From Acanthochlamys bracteata (Eukaryota > Streptophyta > Magnoliopsida > Pandanales > Velloziaceae), in the NCBI GenBank assembly GCA_019914995.1, contig CM034144.1, forward strand, positions 6,479,489 to 6,543,488: a stretch of 64,000 bases of DNA, in the 5' to 3' direction. The notes beneath the pieces are model-generated. The model ran no database searches. It saw only the letters and a list, made by a program, of their open reading frames with translations, and was not told the origin of the DNA. Position 1 is the first letter of the stretch. Every line of letters starts with the position of its first letter. Of the stretch, positions 21,041 to 57,602 are shown one piece after another. The translations under genes were made by a program, and so were the position numbers.

Positions 21041-21047
21041 TGGCTGA

Positions 21048-31100: not shown

Positions 31101-31267
31101 ATCTTAAATATTTCTTGAAGCAGGTAGCTTTTGACAAAATTGGGGCAATGAACGCAAACACAATATCAAAGCAACGGAAGAAGCAGGAACCAGCAGTGAT
31201 GGCTGAGCTCGACCAGAGACTACGTAGACTCAACTCTCTAAAGATGGATGAGAAACAACCTGTGTAA
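28110..31267 (+). CDS. TBC-domain Rab GTPase-activating protein
   Basis: TBC proteins speed GTP hydrolysis by Rab GTPases in membrane traffic. Seven exons: 28110-28664, 29533-29649, 29734-29912, 30024-30117, 30639-30716, 30919-31020, 31124-31267; 1,269 bases, 422 residues. The N-terminal 50 residues are Ser/Thr/Asn-rich. The segment [12 protein letters not shown] is followed by a Glu/Arg-rich helix and the TBC domain from about residue 133 ([20 protein letters not shown]). Both catalytic fingers are present: Arg189 in [13 protein letters not shown] and Gln224 in [15 protein letters not shown], so it should be active by the dual-finger mechanism. Later blocks [14 protein letters not shown] and [20 protein letters not shown] complete the domain. 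The C-terminal tail is basic and helical ([28 protein letters not shown]). Intron 6 (31,021-31,123) begins with GC rather than GT. No lesion was seen. The target Rab is unknown. Confidence 0.93.
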
Positions 31268-33781: not shown

Positions 33782-34116
33782 CTAGTGCTTGCAGCACCCA
33801 CGGCAGTGGCCGTGGTACCAGTTGCAGCAGTACCTAGGCTTGTAGCAATGGTAGTATTTGTAAGAATTGCCATGGCGGTCGGTCATCGTCCCTATATATA
33901 CACACATATATTATACACATGAAGGTTAAACTAAACCGAGAGGAGATAGCTAGGACGCCAATTATCTCTGAGAAAAAAAAAACGTAAAGAAAACTCACCG
34001 ACACTCTGGACGGTTTCTTCCGATGCCTGTGCGACATGGATGGAAGCAAGGACACCGACGATGAGGAGGATGCTGAGCAGTATAAGAGCCTTGCTCTTGT
34101 TGTAGGATTTTGCCAT
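33782..34116 (-). CDS. Small secreted six-cysteine peptide, copy A
   Basis: Two exons on the - strand: 33999-34116 and 33782-33891, with a phase-1 intron of 107 bases; 75 residues. Residues 1-31 form a signal peptide (MAKSYNKSKALILLSILLIV, then GVLASIHVAQA), so the product should enter the secretory pathway. The mature part begins SEETVQSVG and ends with the cysteine module CYKPRYCCNWYHGHCRGCCK, spacing C-x5-CC-x6-C-x2-CC, then His and stop. Tyr, His, Asn and Trp lie between the cysteines. The start was chosen at 34,116 because the signal peptide follows at once; the frame is open further upstream. No named family is certain. The arrangement resembles plant glycine-rich proteins with a Cys-rich tail but lacks the Gly region. 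Exon 1 is nearly identical to that of copy D. Confidence 0.8.
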
Positions 34117-34179
34117 TTCTTTTTTGCTTGCAGTAGTAATGTATACTTGAAGTCTTGAAGAAGTGCAAACTTCGGGCAC

Positions 34180-34189
34180 CTATTTATAG
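34180..34189 (-). promoter_or_regulatory. TATA box of peptide gene A
   Basis: CTATAAATAG on the - strand, 64 bases before the start codon. The same decamer precedes copies C and D and two of the glycine-rich genes. Confidence 0.65.
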
Positions 34190-35505
34190 GGCAAAATGGA
34201 GTGTTTGCAACTTGGGAGTTATCTATATAGATTTTAATAAGATGAATGTTTGCTCTTACGTATTTGAATAAACCAATTAACTTTTTAATATATATAGAGA
34301 GTTTACTTGTTCAAAGATTTTAATTTGTTCTGACTCTTTCTTATTGTTCGAGTTTCGATCAAGAGACAAATTCATGGTTTGGAAGTTCTTAGATAGCATA
34401 CATTTTACATTAAACAATTTTTTTTTTTTGTTTTTAAAAGGAAAATTTTATTCTATTTGTTATTAAAGTAGGTAAACTGAATATTCATGAATATATCATC
34501 AAATGAAAGAGCCAAACTTATTATTTTGTGTAATATAATTTTGATAAATTATTTTAAATTTCTCAACTTGGTTATGTTTGTATGTAACTTTTAATTAATA
34601 TAGGAAATGGACCAAGTAATACAGCTTGATCGAATCAAATGACATATATATGAAGTCGCATATATTTCATGCGCAAGTTTCTTGCAGTAGCACACAAGCA
34701 TTAAGCTTCCAACACAAAATAGACTGGGTCGGAGTTGTTCTTTTTTTTTAATTTTATGACGTATAATTTATATATATTTTTTAAAATTTTAAAAATATTT
34801 TATATTATAAAAAATTTTGATATGAAATTAAATGAAATTTTTTGCTGAACAAACCGTACATTAGAGAGTAGGCCATGTTTTATTGAGTTTAAATTTTAGA
34901 ACTTTTTTTCAAAAAGCTGTGTTTCAACATATTTTTTTTAGATTTTTTCTTAAAAAAATAGCTCTTTTCAAAAATATATTTGAATAAAAAAAGCTGAGGA
35001 AATATATGTTTGGTTAAAATTGCACAAACACATATTAATAACACAAACTTGATGCAAACACATGTATTCTTTTTTCTTTTTTAGGAACATAAATCTATAC
35101 ATATCCTATGAGTTAGATTCTTGGTCTTTATATAAATGCAGTTTAACTTAGAAAACTCCTGAAGCAATTAGCTTGTAGCAACTTATTGTAATACTCAATA
35201 GTTTTGAAATAATACTCATTAAATTTATTGTACTAATTGTTTTTTAGATTTGTTTCTTTTTTGTATTTAAATGATTTTGTTTTTCCTTTTTATATACGTA
35301 CATACTCGTTCATTCTTCTCTTTATTTTTTTTATTTTTTTGTGTGGACAAAATCATAAAACCACGTGTCACTCACTTTACTCAAGATTATAAAATTTATT
35401 TATTAAAATAAAATAAAAATATTTTTTATTATAGAAAAATTTATTTTATAAACACTTTAAAACAGCCCTATATTGCAGTTGTCCATGAGCAAATTAAGCA
35501 GTGTT
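34190..35505. other. Spacer between copies A and B
   Basis: Contains worn pieces of the AT-rich family at about 34,738-34,865 and 35,390-35,465. The block 35,215-35,385 recurs almost unchanged at 36,990-37,145 and belongs to the duplicated unit downstream of the peptide genes. No gene was seen. Confidence 0.5.
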
Positions 35506-35826
35506 CTAACAGTGATTAGGGCATTTTTTGTAGCAGCAGTTGAAGCAGTATCCTTTGGACCATTTGCACTCATATATAGTACTTGGCAATCAAGCCACGG
35601 CGATTGGTTGTCGTCCCTATCGAAATCATCCATATCTATTTACTTTGTAAAATACATATATATATATGGCTATAAAACTACTTGTTCAAAAACTCTAGCG
35701 AACGATTTGGCATTGCGTTTTTAAAATTTTTCATCTCATTTCAGCTATTCGTTTTCTAATTTAATTTCTTAAGATTGCGGGACTTTGGCAACTATTAATA
35801 TAGGCTAAAATGAAAGCACCGATTTC
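35506..35826 (-). pseudogene. Broken six-cysteine peptide gene, copy B
   Basis: Only the second exon (35506-35616) and a promoter remnant (about 35,770-35,826) are left. The exon starts at the same acceptor as copy C and shares most of its bases, including CCGTGGCTTGA and the end TGCTACAAAAAATGCCC. An internal deletion has removed the first cysteine block and brings an early TGA into the frame. What would follow reads CKWSKGYCFNCCYKKCPNHC in another frame. The signal-peptide exon is gone, and the TATA decamer is altered (CTATTAATATAG on the + strand near 35,793). This is a host gene fragment that no longer encodes the peptide. Confidence 0.75.
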
Positions 35827-35829
35827 AAA

Positions 35830-36010
35830 AAATACTATAAAAGTTTTCTAAAAAAATTATTAAAAAAGATAAAAAACATTTCAACCTGTTAAAAAATTCT
35901 TTAAAAATTATTATAAATTTTTTTATACTTTCTAAATTTTTATTAAAAAATTATTAAAATATTATAGAAGATCTATTGAAAAATATAAAATAAAAAAATT
36001 GGAATGAAAA
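35830..36010. repeat. AT-rich MITE-like repeat, worn copy
   Basis: A/T-run interior (TTAAAAAATTCTTTAAAAAT, AAATATAAAATAAAAAAATT) without clear ends. It resembles family 1 but the borders are uncertain. Confidence 0.3.
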
Positions 36011-37631
36011 GAAAAAGATAAGGAAGGTAGGCTTACTTTTTCTATAGCTAATTAGTTTTACAAATAATTCTAAATTCGTCACATAATATCAAAATAAATT
36101 GAGACGAATCGGCTCAGAATTTGACTAAAGTCAACTTCATTATCCACTTTATTTAGAACATTCATGGTCTATTTTATTTCAGAGATTTCATAGTCTATTT
36201 CATTTCGAAAGAAATAATTTGATTCATTTCAAAATAAATAGCCCACTTATTTAATTAATAAGAAAAACCGTTTTGTTAGAGATCAAATGTTAAAATAATT
36301 TAGTTCAATATTAATTATCAATAGTTTTGAAATAATACTCATTAAATTAAGACTTATTTTTGCTATTTTCAATTAATTTAGGAAAGAACTGTAGTTTCTT
36401 CGCACAAACAAAAACCAAATTTATCAAGCAAAAGTTTTGTTGAAAAAGAAAAATTATTAGAAAGGATAATGAAACAATTACACAAAAATGATGCACGATA
36501 GCGCCTTGAAGATGTCTTCAATTACCATGTATTGAATTACAACTTGGAAATACAATTACAACGCTGCGTGTCTGATGACTAATCGAACTTGCAACAAAGA
36601 AGAAAAGATAAATAGAGTAATTACGTAGTGTTCTTCTATTTTTATTTTTATTTAAAATTTCTTTTGTGTGTATGCGCGCGTGTGAGAGTGACGTAATTGT
36701 AATTAAATTGAATGATCCAATAATTAACATACTATAATTTATGCATTGGCCCAAAGATCGGCCCGGCCCTTTTTCTTTCTCTTCCTTAGGTTGCAACTTG
36801 CTAAGTGTACCTCCAGGGAAGAGGACTTGGGGGAGCCTAGGAGGAGTTCATGGGTGCTTTTAAAATAAAAAAATATGTTTTTATTTTTATTAAAAAATAA
36901 GTTATATTTTTATTTAAAAATATAATAAAATAATTAAAAAATTACTTTTTGAAAAATTTTGACAAAAGCACTTGAAGAAAATAACTTAAATTTATTGTAC
37001 TATTTGTTTTATAGATTTGTGTATTTAAATGATTTTGTTTTTCCGTTTTATATACGTACATACTCGTTCATTCTTTTCTTTATTTTTTTAGACTTTTTTG
37101 TGTGGATAAAATCATAAAACAACGTTTCACTCACTTTACTTTAATTGGGAGAACTTTTCTTCTATTTTTATTTTACAAAAATAATTTTTATTTTTTAATA
37201 AATTTTTTATTATATTCTGTAAATTTTATTTGAAAATTTTAAAAATATAAAAATTTTACATCATAAATTTTATTTATATTATTTTTTAATAAAAAATAAT
37301 ATTTATTTTATAAGTATTTTTAAACGGTACTTTTTTGTGATAATTTTCTTGCTTCAAACGGTATGAATTGAATGTTTTGTTGAACTAAAGTGAAAAAAGT
37401 CGCACGTATACATACACAAATTTCACACCAACATCTTCTTCAATATTATAACTCATACATATAAATTACATGTCTCTTGGATTACACAAGCTCATGCAGG
37501 AGTTTATTCAACATTTCTATATACTTTGTAATACAAACGTACGCATATTGCTAGAATAACATTACGAGATATATATATATATATTGCGGTAGTGCATGAG
37601 CTTTTCTAGTGCCAAATTAAGCAGTGTTCTT
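36011..37631. other. Spacer between copies B and C
   Basis: The blocks 36,525-36,780 (with TGTCTGATGACTAATCGAAC and GGCCCAAAGATCGGCCCGGC) and 36,990-37,145 are members of the repeated unit; the first recurs at 39,835-40,080, and part of it at 43,430-43,520. Partial family-1 repeats lie at about 36,845-36,960 and 37,150-37,330. No gene. Confidence 0.5.
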
Positions 37632-38017
37632 CTACCAGTGATTTGGGCATTTTTTGTAGCAGCACTTGTAGCAGTATCCCTTGTTCCAGTTGCAGCAATA
37701 GTTAGGAAATTTGCACTGATAGTAATTGGCAGTCAAGCCACGGTGATCGGTTGTCGTCCCTATCAAAATCATCCATATATATTTATCAAATAAAATACGT
37801 TATATATATATATATCTATATTTATATTATTTGTTTTAAAAATTATATGTTATAAAATTTATATATAATCTGATCATAAAAAAAAATTTGATATATGTTG
37901 CAGTAGAAACTTACCAGCAGCGTCTTCATCCGTCGCATGCGCAACATGGAATGAAGCAAGGACAGCAACAATGAAGAGGACACTGAAGAAGATGAGAGCC
38001 TTATTGCAGGATGCCAT
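37632..38017 (-). CDS. Small secreted cysteine-rich peptide, copy C
   Basis: Two exons on the - strand, 37915-38017 and 37632-37759, phase-1 intron of 155 bases, 76 residues. The signal peptide is MASCNKALIFFSVLFIVAVL then ASFHVAHA. The mature chain starts TDEDAAG and carries CKFPNYCCNWNKGYCYKCC, again C-x5-CC-x6-C-x2-CC, followed by a short extension YKKCPNHW with a seventh Cys. It differs clearly from copies A and D in the signal peptide and the longer C-terminus but keeps intron place and phase. The broken copy B is its closest relative in the window. It should be secreted; its role is not known. Confidence 0.78.
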
Positions 38018-38090
38018 TGTTTTGTTCTCACTAATTTTAAGTACTTTGAAGAGGAGAAGAGCTTGTTATGAAGAATTTAAGATTGCGCGA

Positions 38091-38100
38091 CTATTTATAG
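38091..38100 (-). promoter_or_regulatory. TATA box of peptide gene C
   Basis: CTATAAATAG on the - strand, 74 bases before the start codon. The flank GGCTAAAATGAAACGCACCG is partly kept at the broken copy B. Confidence 0.6.
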
Positions 38101-38304
38101 GCTAAAATGAAACGCACCGAGTTGTAGTTGTGGTTAATTTTTTAAAAATGAAAGTAAACTCTTGAATTTTTTTTATTCAACAATAATACTAATTAATCTT
38201 GATCACGGTAAAAAAATAAATAAATAAATATGAGAGAGAATTTAATTACTTGTTCAAAGATTTGATTTTGTCTTCGTATTTATCTCTTCCGTACAGCAGC
38301 TGAG

Positions 38305-38520
38305 CGTTTCATCTGAGCTTTTTTTTTATTATTTATTCTATATATTTTAATATATATTAAATAAATTTTTAGAAAATTTATTTAAATTTAAAAAGTATAA
38401 AAAGTTTACGTAATGAAATTTTTATTATATATTTTTAAAAATAAAAATATAAAATCATTTATAAAAAAATATTTTTTATTTTAATAATATTTTATATTAT
38501 AAGTATTTATGAAGCTTTTA
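38305..38520. repeat. AT-rich MITE-like repeat, family 1
   Basis: Left end GAGCGTTTCATCTGAGCTTT; the right side is TTATATTATAAGTATTTATG. The interior is typical. Confidence 0.5.
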
Positions 38521-38749
38521 AGTACAGGCATTTTGTTTAAAAAAATTACCCGCCTTCGTAAACAGAAAAAATATGAGACTGTTTTGAAATATTTTCTGAA
38601 AGAGTTTTTTTCAATATAAGTATTTTTAAAATTTAAAAAATAAGCTTTCTAAATTTAAATTTATAATAGTATTGAAGTAGTCTATTGAGACAAAGCTCAT
38701 GCATTCAATATTTACCTCTTCTGATTAATTTATCCTTAAAAAAATAAGA

Positions 38750-38942
38750 TAATATTTAAGAGTATAATTTTTTTTAAAAACAAAAAATATTTTTATTTTT
38801 TAAAAATAAGCTCTTTTTTATCAAATAATAATAATAATAAAATATACAAAGTTTTTTATATTTTGAAATTTTCAAGTAAATATATAAAATAAAATTCTAT
38901 AATAAAAGATAACTAATAAGCATTACTAAAACACGTCTAAAT
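38750..38942. repeat. AT-rich MITE-like repeat, family 1, worn
   Basis: Left side AAGAGTATAATTTTTTTTAA and right side CTAATAAGCATTACTAAAAC flank a family-type interior with an (AAT)n tract. Confidence 0.4.
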
Positions 38943-39207
38943 CCGAAACATATCATCTACTTTATACGTTTAAATGCCGAGTCGAGCTTTATAAAGTTTG
39001 TTTAATCATTTAACAATACATGATTTTATTTTTCTTTTTGGTTTTTATAATTTTTCAACTTGTGCATTGCGTATTAAGATAATAAAACCAAGTAACACCT
39101 CGGTCAAGTCAAATAATTTGGTATAAATGTAGATATCAAAGGGACTTTAAAAAAAAAAAAAAAATGGAGTACTCATTCAACACACGTACGTCATGTTAGG
39201 AATATGC

Positions 39208-39468
39208 GAGCGTTTTAAGAATACTTATAAAATAAATTTTTTAAAATAAAAACTATTTTTTATTTTTTTAAAAAATAATTTTACTTTTTTATTTTTAAAA
39301 ATATAATAAAAATATGTAATTAAAAATTTATATAATAAAAAAACCTTATTGGATAAATTTTTTTTACACTTTTTAATTTTTAAAATTTTTTAAATACTTA
39401 TAAAATATATATATTAAAACATATAAAATTAAAAATTAAAAAAATTTGGAAACTACAATGTCAAACGC
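39208..39468. repeat. AT-rich MITE-like repeat, family 1
   Basis: Left end GAGCGTTTTAAGAATACTTA, right end CTACAATGTCAAACGC. A near-complete copy of about 261 bases. Confidence 0.6.
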
Positions 39469-39533
39469 CCACTATGTCAACCATAATAAAATCGAGAGTA
39501 GTAATGTAGGTACGTAGCTATGTTGCGAATTTG

Positions 39534-39745
39534 GGTGCGTTCTTTTGCACCAAAAAATCACTTCTTTTTTATTAAGAAATCACTTTTAATTCACTTTTTA
39601 TTACAAAAAGAACATAAAAAATCACTTCCAACACATTTTTCAATACAAAAATAACACATCACTTCCAATAATACTATTTTTAAGAACTCACTTCTAAGAA
39701 CTCACTTCCAAAGAACTCACTTTCAACGCCAAAAGAACACACCCT
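39534..39745. mobile_element. hAT-like MITE
   Basis: Terminal inverted repeats GGGTGCGTTCTTTTGCACC (left) and AACGCCAAAAGAACACACCC (right). The interior is a set of short ATCACTTCCAA / GAACTCACTTC repeats in both directions. No gene. A target duplication could not be set with confidence, so the superfamily is a guess from the ends. Confidence 0.6.
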
Positions 39746-40635
39746 TTGTCAATCTTTTATAATAATTTCTAAAAACCAAAATTATCTAGCAATTTTTAAT
39801 TTCAAAGAAAAACTACTAGAAAAAGTAATTATCTTGTACTAAACTACAAGTTATTACGATTACAATGCTGTGTGTCTGATGGCTAACTCGAACAGGCAAC
39901 CACGAAGTTTTCAATTTTTATAATATCTTTTTTATAATATAACTAAACTATATATTATATAACTAATTATATTATAGTTTAGAAAATTAAATTGAATAAT
40001 CTAACAATTAACATATCATAAACTGCAAATGTGCCCAAAATCGGCCCGGCCCATGTCATCTCGCTGGCCTGCCCATTTTGTTCTCTTTCTTTTTGTGGTA
40101 GCAGAGCTTGCGGCAACAATCATATCGTATAATTTTTATTATTTTTTAGATTAAAAATTCAGTTTTTTTTAAAAAATTAAATATTTTTCAGTTTAAGTAC
40201 TCTCAAAACGTTTTTCAAAATTTTTAATAAAAATTCCGGCTAGCTAGCTTGTAAAGTAAAAGAACGGAGTAATTTCATAATCTGCAGTTAATCTTTTAAG
40301 TAGTTACTTATATGCTTCAATATAACAACAAAACTTTGCTTGTTCTAGCTACATATATATTACTTTTTCTTCTTTGTAAAATTTATAGCTTCATATATGT
40401 AAGGTATATAGGTAACAAAGAACACAGGCTGTAATACAACATAAAAAAAAAGCATGCATAAATATTATTATTATTATTATTAACAAAAAATATATTTTAT
40501 TTTTAAAATAAAATAAAATATTTTTTATTCTAAAAATCGATTCATAAAGCGTTCCGTCTCTAGCCATGTTGCAGACGTTACATTCAAACTTTATTTAAAC
40601 AATATATATATATATATATCTATATATATATATGT
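39746..40635. other. Spacer upstream of the C unit
   Basis: The block 39,835-40,080 repeats 36,525-36,780 (TGTCTGATGGCTAACTCGAA; AAAATCGGCCCGGCCCATG). Worn AT-rich repeats lie at 40,130-40,225 and 40,475-40,560 and (AT)n tracts near 40,600-40,632. No gene. Confidence 0.45.
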
Positions 40636-40866
40636 TATATTTGGGAAAATTTTTTTTTTAACTTTTTATTTTATATTTCTTAATAAAGTTTCTGAAATAT
40701 TTATAAAATTATTTGAAAATTTTAATAGTACAAAAAAATTATACATCATAAAATTTTTTAATTAATTATTTTATTATTTTTTTGAAGTATAAAAAGTAAA
40801 ATTTATTTTTTAAAATTTAAAATATTTTTTTTGAATTTTTTTTTCAATAAGCACTACCAAATATCT
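40636..40866. repeat. AT-rich MITE-like repeat, family 1
   Basis: The left side is ATATTTGGGAAAATTTTTTT and the right end AATAAGCACTACCAAATATC. An (AT)n tract follows directly. Confidence 0.5.
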
Positions 40867-42465
40867 CATATATATATATATATATATATATTCTATTTAA
40901 ACTTTATAGTAACAACTAACAAAGCTTCTTTATCTATTTCTTTAGTTATTGCAAAATATGAACTAAATTTTGAATGGATCATCTATTTTATACACTTCTA
41001 AATTCACGAGCCAAACTTTATGAAACGTCTTTTTGTAATTTAATTAATTCTACATTATTTGGGTCTTCGTTTTTATTATTTGTAGTTTCAAACTTAGTTA
41101 AGATATGTTTATATTGTTTATAATATTGTGCATTAAGAAAAAAACCAAGTAGCACCTTGATCAAGTCAAATATTTAGGAAAATAATGTAGATTATAAGAT
41201 AACATCAACATAATTTTTTTAAAGAAAATCAATATCAAATATAATATGGTTTCTAAATATCAATTATATATGAGCTTCGTTGTAATTTGCCATTTTTTGT
41301 TTTGCAGGGGAACGCTCGCTCGGTACCTAAAATCAGAAAAATTATTCTAATACATTTTTTAATTAGAATCAAAATCATGTATGTCTTATATAAATTATCA
41401 TACCAAACTTCAACAATATATACATCATTGTGAAAGTTTGTTTTTCATTGTATTGTTTTTCATTGACTGTAGTTGTTTTAAATATTGTATTATTATAATC
41501 CAATATAGTAATCTAACGTAAGAGATTGATGCACAGTATTATCTGTTTTGAGAAAAAATTGGTTTGAAATTGTTGTCAATGTTGTTCATGGACTCCATGC
41601 AAAGAGGCTGTTTGGGGCAATGTCCCAGACAAACCATGAAGATTCACAAATCATGCTTTTCCCATCTTTGGAGAGTGTTTTTTTAGGGTTTGTTGTTTTA
41701 ATAAAAAAATAAGTTAATGAAACATGAATTACTATTGTGCTGTTACAATAGAGTTTATTCTTATATTTTTTTGTTAAAAAAAATGAATTAAAAGTAACTA
41801 CTTTTATTTTTTTGTTTAGCTGAAAATGAGCGAATATAAACTTTTAGTAAAAAAAAAAAATGAATTATATTGGTGAAAAGTGTAGAGGTCATCGTACTAA
41901 AAAGATTGATCAGTTTATTAGGAATTAGTATCTTCCATTTATAATCATGTATCTATTTCAACATTTAACTAATGTGAAATTATTAAGAGACGTTAGCCGT
42001 TAAGCCGACAAAGTTAGTCCTATTAGTCCAATTTAAAACGAATTGTTGGCACACTTTCAAATTATGTTTTTTATTTGAGCACTATTTGAAATCTCTACGT
42101 TACTAATCTGACTCTAGTCTACGAAGCTAGTCCGTTTTTTATTCGGACCCATCAAATCTTATATACTACAAATTCGGATCTAATCTAATTTGAAGGTTTA
42201 ACAAAAAGAATAAAAACCATAACAACAATATCCAAATTCACACCAAGGGCATCTCTTATCTTATTATTGATACAAACATATATATATTAAGCACACGTTA
42301 CATTTTATATATGACAAACACACATGGAGACCCTTATGCATACGTCTCTCGTACACATATAAACACTTATAATTAACTGAGCTCATGCACACTTTATTCC
42401 ACTATATTATATACTAATATTTAATGCAAGAAGCATTTGGATGCGAGTGCCCTTCAAGGTAAGGA
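40867..42465. other. Spacer downstream of copy D (duplicated unit)
   Basis: The blocks 41,250-41,350 and 41,440-41,700 match 32,200-32,345 and 32,850-33,320. The 3' flank of copy D at 42,230-42,300 matches 33,560-33,640 (copy A) and 37,415-37,470 (copy C). No gene was seen. Confidence 0.5.
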
Positions 42466-42804
42466 CTAGTAGCGGCAGCACTTGAAGCAGTAGCCGTTGT
42501 ACCATTTGCAGCAGTAGTAAGGCTTGTAGCAATGGTAGTGTTTGTGAGGCTTGCCATGGTGGTCGGCAGTTGTTCCTACATATTATGAAATCACAGACAT
42601 GAAAAGTTAACGGAAAAAAATTTAAACCGATGGAAGAGAGCCTATTCTCATATCATCACTGGAGAAGAAAAGAGAAGTAATGAAATGAAACTCACCGACG
42701 GTTTCTTCCGATGCCTGTGCGACATGGATGGAAGCAAGGACACCGACGATGAGGAGGATGCTGAGCAGTATAAGAGCCTTGCTGTTGTTGTAGGATTTTG
42801 CCAT
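42466..42804 (-). CDS. Small secreted six-cysteine peptide, copy D
   Basis: Two exons on the - strand, 42696-42804 and 42466-42575, phase-1 intron of 120 bases, 72 residues. Signal peptide MAKSYNNSKALILLSILLIV then GVLASIHVAQA. The mature part SEETVG is followed by a His-rich stretch (DHHGKPHKHYH) and CYKPYYCCKWYNGYCFKCCR, spacing C-x5-CC-x6-C-x2-CC. Over the aligned part, exon 1 differs from copy A by a single base, plus a 9-base length difference, while exon 2 differs at about 25 of 110 bases, nearly all changing the amino acid; the cysteine codons are all unchanged. The His-rich segment might bind metal, which is only a guess. Confidence 0.8.
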
Positions 42805-42900
42805 TTTTTTGTTTCTTGATCAGTAGAGGATATGTACTTTTATAGTGAATTAGCTAGCTAGAGCTTGTTGTTGTGAAGAAAGATTTGCCAACTTTGGTCA

Positions 42901-42910
42901 CTATTTATAG
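42901..42910 (-). promoter_or_regulatory. TATA box of peptide gene D
   Basis: CTATAAATAG on the - strand, 97 bases before the start codon. Confidence 0.6.
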
Positions 42911-44093
42911 GCCAAAAGTAAGAGGTTCAAGTTCTATTAGCAAGTTGGCTCTATCTTAGCGAGTGTTTGAGAATGATAGTTAAATAAAATTTTTCTGAAA
43001 TAAAAAACAAACTGTGCTGTACTTTGTTGACTTGCTCATGCTTTTACGTACTGTGCTGTACCATTTCGTAGATTGACGAAAACAAAATTAAACAAAACAA
43101 ATAAAGTTTACTTACGGTTTATCTGATGCATTTAACAGAAGTCAATACGTATACGTTATGTTTGAGATAAGCAAATCATAAATTCATAAAATAAAAACTG
43201 GAGTAGTTAGCTTACGTTAGCGTTATGTTTGACTGTCTCAATCATGTATTAATAATAGTTAAAGACCATATTAATTTGTCTAGCAAAATTCTTTTCTCAG
43301 AGGAAAATATATCAGAAATAATAATGAAACAATTACCCTGATATTAATGACGCAGAAATAATTGCACCATCTTGAATATGTCTTCCCCTTTATTTTAGTT
43401 ATTTGTCTTTGCGTGTAAAAATCAAGTAATTCTAATTAAATTAATTGATTCTAAGAATCAACAAACTTTAATTTGTGAATGGGCCCAAATGTCTTCCCAG
43501 CCCATGTCACTGGCGCAGGGGCCCAGTCTGACATATAAGTTATTTGAACTATTCTTAATTTTGTTTAATTAAGTGCTAATAGTGGTAAATGTCCGTCTTA
43601 CGTTTGAATTACAATAAGCTTTAAATTTAGCTACTCCCTATATTTTAATTATTATTTTATTTTTAACTTTTAATTTATATCAAACTTGACTTCTAATATG
43701 ATATAATTTTAAATTTTACTTTATCGTATTTTAATTATAACTTCAAAGTTTACTTTCGCTAAATTTTATTTTTTATCAAATTTTATTTTCACAAAACTTA
43801 TATCAAAGAAAATTTAATTTCATATAATTAAAACACGCTCCAATATAAAAAAGTCAATTAATTTAGTATGTTAAAGCTTTTAAACTAAAAATTATTATTA
43901 AATATTAAAAAAACCTTGAAGCTAGCATTTATTGTTTACGAACATATATACACCTGCATATGAGCATAAAGAGAGAAGAAACACTCTTCTTCATCTCTAA
44001 GAACCCATATAACTTCTTTTATTCAAAGTAAAGTAGCTCTTTAAACTTTAGTAACAACTAATTAACAGAGCATGCATCTACATTTTAGAGAGT
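42911..44093. other. Spacer upstream of copy D
   Basis: Contains the unit block 43,430-43,520 (GGGCCCAAATGTCTTCCCAG, related to 36,720-36,780 and 39,990-40,070). No gene. The last 150 bases should be the 3' UTR of the next glycine-rich gene. Confidence 0.45.
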
Positions 44094-44612
44094 TCAGTTC
44101 TGGGGCTTGTTCTGGAACCCAACCTCAGGGACTTCATCAGGTGAAGAGCAGCACCTGCACCCTTTGCCATAGTACCCTTTTCCGCAACACCCATGGCGAC
44201 ACCAGCCTCCACCTCCGCCGTGTCCACCTTGACCTCCGCCCCCTCCGTGTCCACCACCACCACCTCCACTGTGACCTCCACCACCACCGTATCCACCGCC
44301 TCCTCCTCCTCCGCCGTAGCTTGCAGGCTTCTCTGCAGCACCTTCCTTCGGGTTCTTGTTTTCTAAAAGCCAAATATATATAGGCAAATAAGTTACTAAA
44401 TATAGACAAAAGAATGTTTCAGGGAAAGAAACCGAAAGCGGTAAAAGCTAAAGCTAAAAAGCAGTACCAGTTAGGGGTTTGGTCTCCTGGGACTGGTCAC
44501 TGCTAGGCATAACCTTGCCGGCGGCGACATCGTGAGCATTACTGAACTCGAAGGAGATGACAATAGCAGCAATGAGCGCAAGCAGAACTACAACCTTAGA
44601 TGAGGAACCCAT
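44094..44612 (-). CDS. Secreted glycine-rich protein with a six-cysteine tail (GRP1)
   Basis: Two exons on the - strand, 44468-44612 and 44094-44362, phase-1 intron of 105 bases, 137 residues. Signal peptide MGSSSKVVVLLALIAAIVIS then FEFSNA. A polar linker (DVAAGKVMPSSDQSQE; ENKNPKEGAAEKP) precedes a run of GGGGY, GGGGH and GGGGQ units and a C-terminal tail CRHGCCGKGYYGKGCRCCSS followed by PDEVPEVGFQNKPQN. This is the layout of plant class II glycine-rich proteins with a Cys-rich end; AtGRP3 of that class is known to bind a wall-associated kinase. Cell wall or apoplast is the expected place. The frame is open upstream, but the signal peptide fixes the start at 44,612. The tail spacing C-x3-CC-x8-C-x1-CC is close to that of the neighbouring small peptides. 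Confidence 0.88.
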
Positions 44613-45652
44613 TGTTATCTCTCTTTTCATGCAGTGCCTGTGAAGATCAAGAAGTTCGATCCAATTTATAAAGGATTCAAGAAAACAAACTGACAATGGG
44701 TTCAATTTATGGAACTTGTAATGTAGCACTTTTACGTGGCTATTTTGCCTTGAATTTATGTTGTACTCATCTGCATAGGTCTACTACATGAGGTAATCTG
44801 AATTTTGTACTCGTTGCATTTTAGTATTATTAACCCTTGCTCGGCGAAGTAGCCACGTCCTAACCACTGCTCTGCATGTCTATCTGTTTTAGTACTCTTT
44901 TGCTATTCAGATTTCTTATTTTATATATTTAATAAATTTTTATAATAGTTTAAAAAATTTTTATATTTAAAAATATAATTTATTATTATTATTATTATTA
45001 TTATTTTTTTTTAAGATCAAAAAATAAAATTCTCTATTAAAAAATCTTTAAAATATTTTGAATTTTAGAAAAACTCAATTTTAAAATTACTCCATAATCT
45101 TATTTAATTTTTATTAAAAAGTAAATTTTAAATAGATTTCTAAATATTTTTACAAAACTATTTTGAGTAATTCATTTAAAAATTGTTAGTTTGGTTTATA
45201 TGCTTCGGAGCATATGGGAGTGTCACTGAATATTCGAATCCCTGTGAAACTGAGTGCGTGTTTACATTGATATCAAACTTATTTTTTAAAAATAAGTTTA
45301 TAAATAATGGATTTAGAATTGAAAGTAAATTAATTAAAAATACTTCTTTGTTTTTATTTTATATTAAATAAGTTTGAAAATAAAATATTTTAATTTTAAT
45401 ATTTAGATTTTAAAAAATAATTTGTTTATTTTAAATTTTTTGTAGAAAATATCACGGATGCAAACACTATATACGTACGTATTTGTAGAAAAACATATAC
45501 AGCACAATAATATAACGAAGCACTACATATACATTTGAGGGTACGTAGAGGAACAACTAGAGTCCCCTCCTCTTTTGCATTTACATGCATGCAAACCTTT
45601 ATTCACTAGCTACTAGCAGGCCTCTTTCTTTAAGCTTTTCCATGGTGTACTT
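44613..45652. other. Spacer between GRP1 and GRP2
   Basis: AT-rich repeat pieces lie at about 44,890-45,065 (with a (TTA)n tract at 44,980-45,006) and 45,258-45,450. A unique stretch at 45,195-45,250 contains ATTCGAATCCC, which resembles a tRNA B box but has no full tRNA around it. No gene. Confidence 0.4.
44665..44670 (-). promoter_or_regulatory. TATA box of GRP1
   Basis: TATAAA on the - strand, 53 bases before the start codon. It is not the full CTATAAATAG decamer of the neighbours. Confidence 0.45.
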
Positions 45653-46763
45653 CTAGGGTTTGAGCTCAGCTTCAGGCTCAGAGACCTTCTTCTGATCAGT
45701 AGAGGAATATCCACCATGGTGGCCTCCTCCGCCACCGTATCCTCCTTGGTGGCCACCTCCGTAGCCACCGCCTCCGTATCCTCCTTGGTGGCCACCTCCA
45801 CCGTAGCCACCGCCTCCGTATCCTCCTTGGTGGCCACCTCCGTAGCCACCCCCTCCGTATCCTCCTTGGTGGCCACCGCCTCCGTATCCACCATGGTAAC
45901 CTCCGTATCCACCGCCCCCGTAATATGTAGGGTTATTGACATCTTCCTCTGCACCACCTCCATATCCACCATGGTGGCCTCCGCCGCCTCCATATCCACC
46001 TTTGTGGCCACCATACCCTCCTCCGTATCCGTTAGGGTTATTGATATCTTCCTTTGCACCACCGCCATATCCACCGTGGTGGCCGCCTCCACCGTAGCCA
46101 CCGCCTCCGTATCCTCCTTGGTGGCCACCTCCACCGTAGCCACCGCCTCCGTATCCACCATGGTAACCTCCGTATCCACCGCCACCGTAATATGTAGGGT
46201 TATTGACGTCTTCCTCTGCACCACCTCCATGGTGGCCTCCACCGCGATTGTATCCTCCTCTGCCCGTAGGGTTATATAAATCTTCCTCTGCACCACCTCC
46301 ATGGTGGCCTCCACCGCGATTGTATCCTCCTCGGCCCGTAGGGTTAATTAAATCTTCCTCTGCAGCACCTCCATATCCACCATGGTGGCCTCCTCCGCCG
46401 CCATATCCGCCGTGGTGGCCGCCTCCACCGCCACCGCCTCCATGGTGGCCTCCTCCGCCGTAGCCCATAGGGTTAGCTTCATCCTTTGCGTTTTTCTCCT
46501 CTGCAAGCAAAGCAAAGACGTTTTTATTGCTATTACAAAATAATCAAATCATATTTACCACGCACGTTAAGAAACTCTCTTGTCAATTAATGTATGTATA
46601 ATATCAGGATATATATATATATACCATTAACGAGTTTGGACTCAGCAACATTATTTGTCTGCTCGGCAAGATCGCGAGCATCGATCACCTCCGAGGAGAT
46701 GATCAGAACTGCGAGCAGAGCAGCGAGAAGAAGAGATTGGGTTTTTGTAGTGAAACACGCCAT
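45653..46763 (-). CDS. Large secreted glycine-rich protein without cysteine tail (GRP2)
   Basis: Two exons on the - strand, 46625-46763 and 45653-46500, phase-1 intron of 124 bases, 328 residues. Signal peptide MACFTTKTQSLLLAALLAVL then IISSEVIDA. The mature chain starts RDLAEQTNN and is then almost wholly Gly/Tyr/His: units such as GGGGYGGGHQGGY and GGGGHHGGY are broken five times by an acidic spacer of the form A-(E/K)-E-D-x-x-N-P (EEDLINPTGR, EEDLYNPTGR, EEDVNNPTYY, KEDINNPNGY, EEDVNNPTYY). It ends SSTDQKKVSEPEAELKP. The only cysteine is in the signal peptide. It is likely a structural wall protein. Internal DNA repeats suggest unequal crossing-over, so length may vary between alleles. Confidence 0.88.
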
Positions 46764-46805
46764 TGTGAGTTGGCTTGTGAAGAATTATTAAACACCATAT
46801 TGATC

Positions 46806-46815
46806 CTATTTATAG
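46806..46815 (-). promoter_or_regulatory. TATA box of GRP2
   Basis: CTATAAATAG on the - strand, 43 bases before the start codon, identical to the box of peptide genes A, C and D. Confidence 0.6.
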
Positions 46816-46924
46816 AAGTTGGGAAATGAAGATATAACATAGTGGGTGCAAAAGCAAATCAACACCTAATCTTGACTATCGATAGTGTTACACTTATAGT
46901 AATATTACATATGTTCTACTGGCT

Positions 46925-47140
46925 TCTAAAGAAATGTTTGAACATTACTTATATATATTTGTTATTTTTTATTTTATACTTTTTAATAAATTTATAATAT
47001 TTTACAAAAATATTTAAAAATTTAAAAAATAATGCATCATGAGATTTATTATTATTTTTTTTAAAGAAAAAAATACAACTTATTTTTAAAGATTAAAAAT
47101 ATATTTTATTTTAGATTATTTTTTAAAGCACATTTCATTA
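46925..47140. repeat. AT-rich MITE-like repeat, family 1
   Basis: Interior TTATTTTTTATTTTATACTT and TTTATAATATTTTACAAAAA; the right side is ATTTTTTAAAGCACATTTCA. The left end is unclear. Confidence 0.45.
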
Positions 47141-47871
47141 GACTTAAATTCTATATTTATTAAGATCTAGTTAAATTATATAAAAAAAGAGTTTTATAAA
47201 TATAAATTTGTAAAATTAAATAGCGATAAAGAAAATTTAGTAAAAAATAAAATTTAATAAAATCAGAGTTTGAAATACTATGAAACGCGTAAAATAAAAT
47301 TTGAAGTTAATTTTGATAAAAATAAAATTTAACGTAAAATTAAAAATATAACTCGAAATAATAATTAAAATATATAAAATAATAAAATTTAAAATTTAAA
47401 GAGAAAAATAAAATTTTTATAATTAAATCGTCACCTAAGTGGACCATGACGTACGTCAAATATCTTCCTTTTGTTGGGATCTTTTGACAATGCCTAGACT
47501 TTAGTCCTCGCGAAAGAACAGATACATCTGTGCGTTAAAGTTTTAATTATTTTAAGTCTGATTAATAAGATTGAAGTTTTAGTTTAAACTTTATAAAGTT
47601 AATGAGATATTTGTCATGAAATAATTAATAAATTTGTGAAGAGAGATCTTAAGAGATCTACATTATGCTTATCATGTCCTTGACTAGATAATCCACAGAG
47701 AAGAAAAATCTTAATCTTTCCGTAACTTTTGATGTTTCGAAAAACGTGTCCTATAATTATGAAGCAACCTTGACTTTTTAGTTTATTTTCTTTATTTAAT
47801 TTTGCTTTAACTTTTTGTTTTCCGCATTGTTCATAACTAAACATATTTGAAACATAAAGCCATAATTAAGG

Positions 47872-48075
47872 AGATATTTAGAAGTGATTATTAATTTTTT
47901 TTTTAAAAAATATTTTGGGAATTTTTAAAAAATAAGTTATATTTTTTATTTAAAAAATAAATAATAAAATTTTATTACTTAAAATTTTTTTATATTTTAA
48001 ATTTAAAATTTTTTTATAAAATATATTAAAAACTTTATTAAAAATATAATATAAAAAGTTAGAGTGAAAATAAAA
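47872..48075. repeat. AT-rich MITE-like repeat, family 1
   Basis: The left side is ATTTAGAAGTGATTATTAAT; the interior runs TTTTATTTAAAAAATAAATA to ATATTAAAAACTTTATTAAA. Confidence 0.45.
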
Positions 48076-48104
48076 TGATAAGTTTTTCCGAATATTCACT
48101 GAAT

Positions 48105-48345
48105 AAGCTTTTGGCAAAAAGCTTTCTATAAAAATTACTTTTTATTTTTTAATTTATATTTTTAGTACATTTTTTATTAATTTTTTAAAAAATTTATTTA
48201 AAAAAATAGAAAATATAAAAAAATTTACGTAATATATTTTTTTATTATTTATTTTTTTAATCAAAATAATATAACTTATTTTAAAAAAAAACAAAAATAT
48301 TTTTTTTTCAAAAAACTTTTATTTCAAAATCACTTCTAAATCGTT
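48105..48345. repeat. AT-rich MITE-like repeat, family 1
   Basis: Left end GCTTTTGGCAAAAAGCTTTC, right end TTTCAAAATCACTTCTAAAT. Directly follows another copy. Confidence 0.5.
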
Positions 48346-49298
48346 TGCAAGTACATAAATACCCTTCTTTCAAGGTTTTAGTGGAAGTACATAATTAATT
48401 GATCTTAATGGATCTTCTTTGATAATGTTGGATTAAGAATATGCTAGGATCTCTTGTATCCAAACAGTTGTTAGTAAACCCTTTGCTTCTAGTCTCCATC
48501 AATCAACAATGAATAAAAGCCATCAACCATCACGCGACATATATTAGAGTGCGTTCTTTTCACGAGATGACATTTACAAGTGTTTAAATTAATCGTTTAT
48601 CAAAAAAATTTTATATAATTTTTTAAACTTTGTTTAATTATATACATATAAAACAAATTATACAAATAAAAATTTTATAATGTATATATTTTCAATTTTT
48701 TTAAAGTATAATATTGTAAAACAATATTGAAAAAATTAACATAAAAGTTTGATATATAGTGATAAGATTTGCCAAAGAGAGTGACTTTAAAACAATTACT
48801 TCTTAAAGTAATTTTTTTAAAGATAAATTTCTTTAAAGATATAATAAATTATCTATAATAAAAATAAATCACAAATAAATATCTCTTTAGGAGTTTTTTT
48901 TGTAAAAAATTGAGTCATCTAAAGTGAGTTTTAAGTAAATTACTTAAAATTTATTAAAAATTGTATGGAATTTTGTTTATTTCTAAAAGTTAAACGTTAA
49001 CTTTTTATTTTAAATTAAAATTTTAAACTAAAAATGGGTTGAAAATTTGAAGTTAAAATGTTGTATTTATATTAATTTAAAATGAAGTAAAACTTTTTAC
49101 ATGTGAGTTCAAATTATAAGTAAACACGGTCTTGTTTCATAATATGCATGCATTCATTGTTCATGAAACCAACCAATTAATAATTTAATACATACAAACT
49201 TTAATGACATACAAAACATATACTATATTTACTACAATCATAATTAACAAGCATGCAAAGTTCATACGTATAAAATCCAAGTTGAACTCAGACACAAA

Positions 49299-49885
49299 CT
49301 AGTGGTGCACTTCCGGTCGGTACATCGGCTCCGGTATATCATTTGCTCCCCAACAGCACCGACAACCACCGTAATATCCCCGGCGGCAACATCCATACCT
49401 GCAATAGCCAGGATTACCTCCATACCCACCACCGGGGTAACCTCCATATCCACCACCGGGGTAACCACCGTAGCCGCCACCGGGGTAACCTCCATAACCA
49501 CCGTAACCACCACCGGGGTAACCGCCGTAGCCTCCACCATAGTAGCCGTCGTACTTTTCATTCTTCAGGTTATCAGGCTTGCTGTCGACCTTCTTCTCTT
49601 TTTCAGCATCTACATGGAGTTCATATTAATTATTAATGCTCCAAAAATATTTGAAAACTTGAACCATATGATATCCTATATATTTCAGAACTTAATTAAT
49701 TTGTCAATTACATGGAATTTAATGTTAGTTAAAATTTAAAAATTAATCTTATAAAAGAGTAAGAGGATAGAACACTAACGAATTTCTTTTGAGAGCTCCT
49801 TAGCAGAGACATTATTATTCATGGATGTAAGAAAAACTGCAGCGAAAATAACGAAGAACACAAGCAATATAGATTTAGAATCCAT
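49299..49885 (-). CDS. Secreted glycine-rich protein with PGGGYGGY repeats and a six-cysteine tail (GRP3)
   Basis: Two exons on the - strand, 49780-49885 and 49299-49609, phase-1 intron of 170 bases, 138 residues. Signal peptide MDSKSILLVFFVIFAAVFLT then SMNNNVSA. A lysine-rich linker (AEKEKKVDSKPDNLKNEKYD) leads into repeats of GGYPGGGY, then NPGY and the tail CRYGCCRRGYYGGCRCCWG, ending ANDIPEPMYRPEVHH. Tail spacing is C-x3-CC-x7-C-x1-CC, nearly the same as in GRP1; the ends of both also share an acidic-Pro motif (DEVPE / NDIPE). It is expected in the cell wall and may be held by tyrosine or cysteine cross-links. The start is fixed by the signal peptide. Confidence 0.88.
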
Positions 49886-49935
49886 TTTTTTTAGATTTTT
49901 TATTTTATGTGAAGGATATGAAAGCTTCAACGAAG

Positions 49936-49944
49936 TATTTATAG
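49936..49944 (-). promoter_or_regulatory. TATA box of GRP3
   Basis: CTATAAATA on the - strand, 51 bases before the start codon. Confidence 0.55.
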
Positions 49945-51020
49945 AAGTTTTCTGTCTTGAATGAAATCAAGCTTAAATTTTTTTTAGGTAGCAGTTGAGA
50001 GATTTCAGTAGCGTGTAGATTGAAGTTAAAATGATTCTTTGAATTTCGAAGAAAATATTAATCTTATCCATACAGCTAGGCAGAAGATCTTTTAAAAAAA
50101 GTTTTTCATAGTATTTAAAATTTTTTTAAAAAATAAGCTTTAATTTTTATTTCAAAAAATAAAAACATAATAGATCTATAATTTTTTTGTATTTCTAAAT
50201 TTTTTAAAAAATTTTGTAAAATATTTTAACAAACTTATTAGAAAAATTAAAATAAAATGTTGAAATTAAAAGGAGAAGATAATGAGCTCTTAGGCGTTCT
50301 AAATTATCTTAAACTTTAACGTGTAAAGAGTGAAGACAAGACATTCTTCAAAAAATTGATTAGAAATTATTAATAACTAATGCTATTTTGCTTTCCAATT
50401 TCTTCAGGTCCATCTAATTAATGTATCTATCTAAATACTTTAATTAAGTTATTAATATACATGATCAGTTATTTTTTCTTTATGTATTATTTATTTGTAT
50501 TGAATTATATTATTTTATTATTCTGGATGAAACAATTAGTAAGATAATAAGTTTATAGCATGTTATAATAATTCTTCGTGCCTAGTTATCACTTAGCAAT
50601 CAATGTCCATAAGCACTGCGCGCGTTGAATTATTTGTAATTCGTTTTAAGTACCTTATAAATAATTTATAATTTGTTTTTTTAATCTGGTAAGATATTGA
50701 ATAGTACAACCAATTTGTCTGATATATTTTGGTCTGAAATAACATTATTTTTACGAAATTATAATTAAATAACAAGAAAAAAAATAGAGATTTCACTATT
50801 CATAACCATTATATATATAAGTGCAATTTTTTATTCATGAAATAAAGATGGATATTCTTCAACTAATACAACACGTTGGATGCATGTACGTATAAGTATG
50901 AGCAAGAGAAATACGTAATACGTACGTGTGTCTCTTCTCAACACACTCATGTTACACCCTTTTATTCAATCACACTGCTATACTACTTCAATTAATACAT
51001 ATATAACAACGTAACTTTAT
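49945..51020. other. Spacer between GRP3 and GRP4
   Basis: A family-1 repeat lies at about 50,085-50,295. The rest is AT-rich; 50,930-51,020 should be the 3' UTR of GRP4. No gene. Confidence 0.4.
50085..50295. repeat. AT-rich MITE-like repeat, family 1
   Basis: Interior TTTAATTTTTATTTCAAAAA and GTATTTCTAAATTTTTTAAA; right end GAGCTCTTAGGCGTTCTAAA. Confidence 0.5.
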
Positions 51021-51530
51021 TCATTCCCTGCCACCGTGCCCGCCTCCGCCATGGTGGCCTCCGCCGTGGCCGCCTCCGCCATGGTGGCCTCCGCCGTGGT
51101 GGCCTCCACCATGGTAGCCTCCGCCGTGGTAGCCTCCACCATGGTAGCCTCCGCCACCATAGCCTCCGCCACCGTATCCACCGTGTCTCTGTTCAGCTGC
51201 TACTCCAGCATTGTTGTTCTCGTGCTTAGCCTCTGCATATATAAAGTACAATATTTAGGGTTTCAGAAATATTCAGAAACTAACTTCGCAGAAAAAGCAA
51301 AAGCTAAACGTTATAACATAAAAAAGAAATATATGTATAACCGAAGTTGAATCTCATGAATAAGGTTTGAAGAAAGCTCGCTGTAGTTATAGTAATGAAA
51401 TAAAACTGAGCACGCTGCTACTCATGAGAGAGTGTTTTAATGGAAGCTTACGAGTTTCCTCAGCAGCCACAACAAGCAGTGCAGCCAAGAGCAAAGCAAG
51501 CACAAGCAAAGACTTAGAAGAAGAAGCCAT
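51021..51530 (-). CDS. Secreted glycine/histidine-rich protein without cysteine (GRP4)
   Basis: Two exons on the - strand, 51452-51530 and 51021-51232, phase-1 intron of 219 bases, 96 residues. Signal peptide MASSSKSLLVLALLLAALLV followed by VAAEET. A short polar linker (EAKHENNNAGVAAEQRH) precedes GGYHGGG and GGHHGGG units that run to the end (GGGGHGGRE). There is no cysteine and no tail. The exon 1 start MASSSKSLLVL is the type seen in known plant GRP genes (AtGRP3-like: MASKALVLLGLF). It should go to the cell wall. The DNA repeat makes length variation likely. Confidence 0.87.
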
Positions 51531-56200: not shown

Positions 56201-57602
56201 TTCTCAAGGGTCTTAGAAAAGAATACGAAGAAATAGATCAAGTATGCCAACCCTAAGACAAAAAACTCGATTGACTCTAGCATCTCTCATAACTAGCGGC
56301 ATGAAAGTATGTACAACATAGGCCCTGGGTTCTGTATTCAGATAAGTGATAATGATACAGCTGGTAGTTGAATTATAGAATTTCACAATTCAAGCAAACT
56401 AAATGAAGTACAGAGAAAAAAAGAATTGAGCCCATTCCCTAGCACAAGATAATGACTCTAACAAGGGCGTTAGCCCTTTAAATGTCTACATGAAAACATG
56501 TCTTTAATAAAAAAATTCAAAAAGGGGTTGCCTCCAATAATGCATATTGAGAATGCAGAGACACAAACCTTGCAGTAAAAGTAGTAATGTGTGATGGCAT
56601 AGCAAAGCCATTTCAGCATTTCTTCTAATGTTTGAGTTATTCCCAAATCCTCAGTCTGAATGGTCGAAGCAAAACATGTCAAATCGCTCCTTGAATAATC
56701 TTGACTTGGATAATCTTGATTTTTATCATACGCAAGGCTCTCATTAAGAACATCAATAACCTTTTCGTGCTTCACATGGCAGAAAACAGGTCTTCTAGAT
56801 TCTGTAATTTCCTTATATCAGTAGATGATTATCTTATTCCAAATTATGGTTTTATCAAAATGCTTTCAATAAAGATGACCCAAAAACAAAACAAAAGTAA
56901 ATTTGCATACATAATAAATTCAACATTTGTGTTCAAAGTCTAGCAATATCTATAAAAAAGACACTAAAAATCAAAATAGAGTGGTGTGAAATAGTGACAA
57001 CAATAAATTCAGAAAATTTTTACTTAAAACCAATTTGCTCCGAATTCATTCTCAGAGTTATGAGCACGTGGATGAACGAGCCAGCGAGCTGCGAGTGAAG
57101 TGCAAGAGTCGTAAGGCGAGAAATCTTGCGTAAACCAGATAGAAAACAAATACAAGTAAACCCTCAACTAAAAGTGCATCAAATTTGAAACTAGAAATGA
57201 ATAACTGCTAGAAATTTCTGATTAACAAGTAAGAAAGTTGGCTTAAGAAACCTAAACTGAACAACTTAAGAACTAATGAAGAGCTTAACTAAAAGGAAGT
57301 AAACAAAATCACAAGAAAAAGCTTGCATCTTTCTCAAATTAACTTCTACAGATTACACAAAGAAGAACATCAGCTCAAAATCAGCTTAAATAATCTAAAT
57401 TTCAACTATAATCGACACGAGAAAACTTGATTCATGTATAAAATTGTACAGAAGAAAAGGATAAAAGAAAGGGAATAATTTAGGGACCTGGATAATTGAA
57501 GCCAGCGGACACAAACTTTGCAGGAAAAGATTGAAACTTTGGAATAATTTCGCCGGAGAAGTTCTTCGGAAGCTGGTGAGAGCAACGGATGAGAGCAGCC
57601 AT
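53265..57602 (-). CDS. FLU: FLU, chloroplast TPR protein that represses tetrapyrrole synthesis
   Basis: FLU sits on plastid membranes and blocks glutamyl-tRNA reductase, stopping 5-aminolevulinate synthesis in the dark. Five exons on the - strand: 57488-57602, 56569-56801, 55398-55557, 54462-54779, 53265-53467; 1,029 bases, 342 residues, phases all agree. The start MAALIRC is the same as remembered for Arabidopsis FLU. The first 100 or more residues are a transit peptide and a poorly kept region. A membrane segment follows at about 155-173 (MPLLFGIALIGAAVGGLLA), then a coiled coil (ARQRKSELEKLNAQLRQINA), the block ESYAPSLSYAPVG, and TPR repeats at about 215-340 (EPTKAFEEFKSALELAKTLG, KYKEAIRYYLMILEICKR, EAYGAIADCYTELGDFERAA), ending YIARLETD. 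The second exon's 3' part (EEMLKWLCYAITHYYFYCK) is unlike the Arabidopsis protein as I recall it; an earlier donor there cannot be excluded. Confidence 0.9.

Follow-up and report, generated by a model that had tools for sequence, protein, structure and literature searches.

Class II glycine-rich proteins (GRPs) are defined by a signal peptide, glycine (Gly)-rich repeats and a C-terminal cysteine (Cys)-rich domain (PMC5852109, PMC4777284). In AtGRP3, the Cys domain is reported to be required for binding to WAK1 and the protein to be found mainly in the wall (PMC4777284, PMC4783359). In dodder, the receptor CuRe1 is reported to be bound and activated by the wall protein CrGRP and likewise by an isolated Cys peptide of 21 residues from it (PMC7576778, PMC8096328). 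Arabidopsis seems to hold a class II GRP cluster too, because homologs of AtGRP3 (At2g05520) are found among loci numbered At2g05380 to At2g05530 (PMC6161759), and in Chinese cabbage the class I and class II genes are described as having one or two exons (PMC7396569). Here we describe a row of related genes in a 64,000-nucleotide stretch of Acanthochlamys bracteata DNA (the window; contig CM034144.1, positions 6,479,489 to 6,543,488), which is part of the contig we call C19. The minus strand of the window carries seven intact genes, predicted from the sequence, of three kinds: Cys-only, Gly block plus Cys tail, and Gly-only. We consider it likely that a single secreted class II GRP locus was multiplied in tandem and duplicated together with its surroundings, and that its separable Gly block and Cys module were reshuffled.

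Each of the seven gene models has a single phase-1 intron (GT..AG, 105-219 bases) directly past the stretch that encodes the putative signal peptide (Table 1). The predicted proteins all begin with a hydrophobic N-terminus that, judged by eye, is typical of a signal peptide, and a TATA-like box is present 50-106 bases upstream of every ATG. The splice sites were picked by hand from the reading frame and from likeness among the genes, and the exon models are predictions; when joins were ranked automatically by length, other joins came out on top and none was given for G6. The Gly share of the whole protein is 25-43% in G4, G5, G6 and G7 and 4-7% in C1, C2 and C3, and the Cys modules read C-CC-C-CC with six Cys, apart from mature C2. 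The initial annotation had described a minus-strand row of seven genes with a phase-1 intron past the signal peptide, which these models bear out. Its three kinds of mature exon also stand as described, except that it gave C2 six Cys, and C2 has seven in its mature exon (eight in the whole protein). It further took the shared plan as an argument for one ancestor; the plan and the TATA-like boxes are indeed present, but phase-1 introns near the end of a signal peptide are common in small secreted proteins and TATA boxes are common as well, so we set these features aside as strong evidence and count them as weak.

By plan, two of the seven window genes (G4 and G6) are full class II GRPs, and from their predicted sequences they are of the AtGRP3/CrGRP type. 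They share the Gly repeats and C-terminal Cys domain of AtGRP3 and other class II GRPs and have a putative signal peptide; the dodder class II GRP CrGRP/Crip21 likewise has a six-Cys peptide at its C-terminus. G5 and G7 have Gly repeats without a Cys domain, and C1-C3 have the Cys module without Gly repeats. A Pfam scan of eight family proteins (C1 was not among them) placed G6 (45.4 bits), D417 from the second cluster described below (40.5), G5 (38.1) and G7 (30.5) over the curated PF07172 cut-off of 30 bits.

We found that the window and its flanks are collinear, in inverted orientation, with positions 403-479k of contig C20 in the 195.5-Mb genome searched, and that on both contigs the cluster sits between the same flanking genes. 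On sequence grounds, the C19 and C20 regions are duplicates of each other. Pooled over six flanking stretches (688 codons), synonymous divergence (Ks) is 0.37 and nonsynonymous divergence (Ka) is 0.10, with single stretches ranging in Ks from 0.235 to 0.715; two methyltransferase-like stretches, which gave 0.95 and 0.93, were excluded from the pool because genes of this kind have multiplied on C19 and C20 alike. Starting from the side of a flanking gene that we take to be a TBC/RabGAP gene, the C20 cluster reads D454 and D452 (both Cys-only), a two-module relic, DD445, a Cys relic at 444.4-444.9k, DD439, D437 (Gly-only), DD433, a Gly+Cys relic at 432.9-433.1k, D430, D427, DD423, D421 and D417; relic sequence is seen at 447.0-447.4k, and a further small relic, of a GRP tail, at 423.08k. 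The order common to both clusters is a Cys-only end, a G5-like middle and an end that resembles G6 and G7. The C20 cluster adds a fourth kind of gene: DD423, DD433, DD439 and DD445 each encode two Cys modules in the mature exon and lie on the strand opposite to the other members of that cluster. On C19, we found no two-module gene. DD433 (C20:433000-433630) lacks the usual end of its sisters and runs into the antisense of the Gly+Cys relic, which gives it a new C-terminus; these two convergent members seem to have been joined 3' to 3' by a deletion. In D437 (C20:437515-438219), the frame is shifted at the C-terminal end, and sequence that corresponds to an intron end in D430 is read through as coding.

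To see how far the family extends in this genome, we used five family proteins as queries, with expectation values (E) up to 10 in one search and up to 1 in the others, and counted matches exon by exon with the queries' own loci included; only the best candidates were scored, so that distant relatives could escape. Of 42 matches, 40 fall inside the two clusters (11/11, 6/8, 11/11, 8/8 and 4/4 for the individual queries), and the other two, on C10 and C16, are weak (E 0.001 and 0.002). Searching the genome with PF07172 yielded four matches, of which one lies in the window and three outside it; all four score under the cut-off. We read seven stray loci with weak matches on C4, C10, C12 and C16, which include those outside the clusters from both searches; a pattern search found no sense-strand Cys module in any of them, and we rejected them as family members. 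The sole match to the Cys pattern among them (L025) is on the strand opposite to a class I-like GRP frame. Close relatives elsewhere, which the initial annotation had named as the sign of unrelated families, were in this sense not found within this genome.

The changes of kind that can be read from the two clusters are losses of the Cys module. The co-orthologs of G7 on C20 are D417 and D427, both of which have a Gly block and a Cys tail. Exon 1 and the start of exon 2 of G7 match them at 75-83%, and in the 3' region of G7 short stretches match in order, with best E values of 3e-6 (D417) and 8e-4 (D427). The whole Cys tail is absent from G7, and its stop codon lies inside a GAATGAATAAA box that is 3' untranslated region in D427 and, one base shorter, in D417. 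As D417, D427, G6 and D421 have tails that resemble one another, it is simpler to suppose that G7 lost its Cys module. In D430, the second exon ends GGGGYCRHGC, as in the G4 tail (E 3.5e-5), and is followed by a tail, TSKDQQKVSE.., that resembles the one in G5; when the tails were aligned, the C-terminal tail of G5 resembled that of D430 and, briefly, the part of G4 past its Cys module. G5 has this D430-like tail and no Cys module, which fits a deletion inside the Cys module in the G5/D430 line. With the direction set by parsimony, these comparisons show that Gly-only genes arose at least twice from Gly+Cys genes by deletion of the Cys module, in G7 and in the G5/D430 line. The initial annotation had instead attributed the change of kind to loss or growth of the Gly block, which does not hold for the changes visible here. 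Where a Gly block is seen to have grown, this took place within a Gly gene and not as a change of class. We modelled D430 (C20:430425-432015) with six exons and five phase-1 introns, at hand-picked sites, and on this model its Gly block is shown to have grown by tandem duplication of intron-plus-exon units: across intron plus exon, identity reaches 97.2% between units 4 and 5 and is 61-88% in the nine other pairs. In G5, modules similar to those of D430 lie within a single exon, and we infer that they may be fused exons.

We built an exon-1 tree from 18 peptides (17 of them different) from both clusters. The tree recovers the Cys-only genes (support 96/100), the two-module genes (98/95), the G5 group (92/93) and the G6 pair (87/85); it does not unite the G7 group, and one multi-way fork leads to G6, G7 and the Cys-only genes. 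Exon 1 puts G4 with the G5 group (tree support 80/79, block-shuffle z 5.1), and by shuffle score G6 is similar to the G7 group (z 4.5); as the co-orthologs of G7 are themselves Gly+Cys genes, a single family for the four Gly genes is well supported by these comparisons. The likeness of C1 and C3 varies along their length, with 95.7% identity in exon 1, 53% in the intron, 44-47% in the 5' flank, 77% in exon 2 and 72% in the 3' region, as though gene conversion had acted on exon 1 alone (34116-33999 and 42804-42696). Because of this patch, exon-1 trees can mislead at this locus, and we dropped exon 1 as the sole judge of kinship. The exon-1 tree that the initial annotation had put forward as a check returns the main groups, but its deepest fork is unsupported and the C1/C3 patch weakens it as a test.

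To ask whether the Cys-only genes belong to the same family, we compared modules in pairs and expressed each comparison as a mean z against full shuffles and, in a second version, against shuffles that keep the Cys positions fixed. Module 2 of the two-module genes resembles the GRP tails (mean z 7.3; 5.0 with Cys fixed), and the G4 tail in particular is akin to it. Module 1 resembles module 2 (4.2; 2.7 with Cys fixed) and, as a profile, the tails plus module 2 (P 2.3e-4), and the Cys-only modules resemble module 1 (mean z 3.6; profile P 2.8e-5). In DD445, module 1 CCNYYHGRCKSYCC matches C1 CCNWYHGHCRGCC, and module 1 has the CCS.PD step that the G4 tail and module 2 carry as well. It is probable from these comparisons that the Cys-only genes carry the same Cys module, linked to the GRPs via module 1 of the two-module genes. 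We say only probable because the direct likeness between Cys-only genes and GRPs is unconvincing and a bridge through the two-module genes is needed. In this respect the single ancestor proposed for all seven genes stands well supported for the four Gly genes and, for the Cys-only genes, only by way of the C20 two-module genes. We also compared 12 modules with Crip29 using shuffles with Cys fixed, and found z of 3.8 for the D417 tail, 2.8 for module 1 of DD423 and 2.2 for module 1 of DD445.

Several results weigh against descent of all these genes from one locus, and most of them concern the bridge. With Cys fixed, the likeness of the Cys-only modules drops to z 2.15 against module 1 (median p 0.033) and, from 2.7, to 0.73 against module 2, and that of module 1 to the GRP tails drops from 2.7 to 1.5. 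Compared directly, Cys-only modules and GRP tails give a mean z of 1.15 (median p 0.135), or 0.36 with Cys fixed; as a profile against tails plus module 2 the Cys-only modules reach P 0.026 and a probability of 1.9%, and the profile matches extend over few columns (14 and 9). Against Crip29, with Cys fixed, G4 (1.5), G6 (1.2) and module 2 (0.8 and 0.9) score low, and the five Cys-only modules do no better than shuffles (z -0.1 to 1.3). PF07172 scores are under the cut-off for G4 (16.5 bits), C3 (15.4) and C2 (13.1), and DD445 has no PF07172 match, its best being Myticin-prepro (E 0.021, below that family's cut-off). In the exon-1 tree the deepest fork has a support of 35/47, with a long-branch warning that includes G4, and exon 1 ties the Cys-only genes to the two-module group weakly (z 2.5). 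Between the G5/D430 tail and the last part of G4, the apparent likeness covers only a short stretch. If the two-module bridge is taken away, the claim that the Cys-only genes are kin to the GRPs fails. A rather unlikely alternative is that two families lie side by side, a class II GRP and unrelated Cys-rich peptides that share the plan of signal peptide and phase-1 intron, with the two-module genes as an accidental fusion or a convergence on CC-C-CC spacing. The lack of significant direct similarity speaks for it, and so do the separate exon-1 clade of the Cys-only genes and the weak best Pfam match of C3, which is not a GRP family but MEG (PF24153), a family we take to be linked to ESF1. Peptides of the MEG/ESF1 type are short, secreted and Cys-rich like C3, and the match covers residues 1-69 (E 0.0012); however, C3 alone among the eight proteins scanned lists this family, and with 19.5 bits for C3 and 24.4 bits for the family's sole match in the genome (on C10), against a cut-off of 27, we rejected membership. 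What two families would leave to chance is that module 1 matches the Cys-only genes and also has the CCS.PD step of the G4 tail and module 2, and that all the classes lie inside the same duplicated locus, where 40 of the 42 genome matches are found.

Descent from one locus could also have run in the other direction, with Gly-only genes as the older form and Gly+Cys genes acquiring their tail through exchange with neighbours. Exchange and joining of neighbours do occur here, in exon 1 of C1 and C3 and in the fusion of DD433 to the Gly+Cys relic. However, D430 keeps half a Cys motif followed by its tail, and G7 lacks a tail that its two co-orthologs share with G6 and D421; gain of the tail would require that one and the same module, flanked by the same tail, was inserted more than once independently, and we regard this direction as very unlikely. 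Somewhat less remote, but still improbable, is that the Cys-only and Gly-only genes are not working states but decaying members on the way to becoming pseudogenes. Relics are common (window 35457-35655 and, on C20, 444.4-444.9k, 447.0-447.4k, 432.9-433.1k and a fragment at 423.08k), the end of D437 is frame-shifted, and among the nine pairs of short proteins for which we calculated Ka/Ks the value is 0.84 for C3/D452 and 1.76 for C1/C3. Yet the C1/C3 value is disturbed by conversion, and Ka/Ks is 0.34 for C2/D454 (Ks 0.65, Ka 0.22), 0.45 for C2/C3 and 0.50 for C3/D454. With 0.26 for D417/D427 and 0.42-0.60 for three pairs of two-module genes, the values suggest constraint on most pairs. In each of the seven genes of the window the reading frame is open and both GT..AG splice sites and a TATA-like box are present, and Cys-only genes have been kept beside the same flank in both duplicates.

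In the reading we prefer, a class II GRP locus of the AtGRP3/CrGRP type would have been multiplied in tandem and duplicated with its surroundings. Its proteins would consist of a signal peptide followed by a Gly block, of a type that fixes proteins to the wall, and a small Cys module, of a type bound by receptors, and the two parts would be separable: deletions and exchange between neighbours would remove, halve, double or lengthen the Gly block or the Cys module. Because of the reports on AtGRP3 with WAK1 and CrGRP with CuRe1, we infer by analogy an anchoring role for the Gly block and a signalling role for the Cys module. On the same analogy, Gly+Cys proteins would be wall-tethered ligands and two-module proteins bivalent ones, Gly-only proteins would be the wall part alone, and the Cys-only genes may encode untethered ligands. 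We offer with much reserve, as a less probable extension, that the locus is a kit of ligands and tethers, in which one wall-bound ligand gave rise to free, two-headed and wall-bound ligands and an empty tether, so that a wall-sensing receptor pathway would be tuned by gain and loss of gene parts and not by proteolytic release. In dodder, the free peptide derives from the whole GRP, whereas genes in the window encode the bare module. The Cys part of class II GRPs binds a receptor in two reported cases, and its role in the producing plant is understood only in part; by having separated, doubled and removed this part, the locus offers natural variants for sorting the signalling part from the anchoring part. 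It also advises caution in filing secreted GRPs by class, as here class II genes seemingly became Gly-only by single deletions.

The definition of class II GRPs, in the passages cited above, demands both parts, and the Cys-only forms of the window and the two-module forms of C20 depart from it; those passages of the class II GRP literature mention neither form. Among the papers listed in literature searches that miss most subscription papers, none describes, in its title or the opening of its abstract, a cluster in which class II GRP relatives of Cys-only or two-module form stand beside Gly-only genes; this is weak evidence of absence. Some neighbours of AtGRP3 in Arabidopsis probably lack the Cys tail. 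Modular loss in tandem Cys families is already known from HyPRPs, and in plan G4 and G6 do not differ from ordinary class II GRPs. Reports on HyPRPs/HyGRPs describe tandem families in which a repeat block is joined to a Cys domain and has been lost or replaced repeatedly and independently (PMC2216038, PMC4174136), a published precedent for modular change as at this locus. Unlike the genes described here, in which modules have six Cys and it is the Cys module that is lost, HyPRPs and HyGRPs have an eight-Cys motif and lose the N-terminal block; we rejected membership in that group since the modules have six Cys (seven in C2). AtGRP3 is said to resemble soybean nodulin-24 (PMC4783359). D430 seems to be built as nodulin-24 is. 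The soybean nodulin-24 gene was built by tandem duplication of an exon unit. C3 has no match among PDB sequences, and NCBIfam, a library for prokaryotes, returned nothing useful for three proteins.

Table 1. Genes of the window cluster, a relic within it and the flanking genes; positions are those of the window.
Feature	Position	Strand	Structure or relationship
C1, Cys-only, 75 amino acids	34116-33782	-	exon 1 34116-33999, phase-1 intron 33998-33892, exon 2 33891-33782; homologs C3, D454, D452
C2, Cys-only, 76 amino acids	38017-37632	-	exon 1 38017-37915, intron 37914-37760, exon 2 37759-37632; resembles D454 on C20
C3, Cys-only, 72 amino acids	42804-42466	-	exon 1 42804-42696, intron 42695-42576, exon 2 42575-42466
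G4, Gly block + six-Cys tail, 137 amino acids	44612-44094	-	exon 1 44612-44468, intron 44467-44363, exon 2 44362-44094
G5, Gly-only, 328 amino acids	46763-45653	-	exon 1 46763-46625, intron 46624-46501, exon 2 46500-45653
G6, Gly block + six-Cys tail, 138 amino acids	49885-49299	-	exon 1 49885-49780, intron 49779-49610, exon 2 49609-49299; collinear with D421 on C20
G7, Gly/His-only, 96 amino acids	51530-51021	-	exon 1 51530-51452, intron 51451-51233, exon 2 51232-51021
Relic of a broken C2-like Cys gene	about 35457-35655	-	86% to C2 over 80 nucleotides; Cys stretch 35574-35524
Flanking gene, one cluster edge	27981-31264	+	collinear with C20 459.1-455.8k; taken to be a TBC/RabGAP gene
Flanking genes, other cluster edge	53265-60000	not assigned	collinear with C20 404-416k; presumably TPR-like and SABATH-methyltransferase-like

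Beyond the cluster, the genes that we take to be SABATH-methyltransferase-like (58000-60000 and the flank to about 67000) are multiplied on both contigs too, and positions 20001-24000 of the window are very AT-rich, with a GC content of 17-24%.

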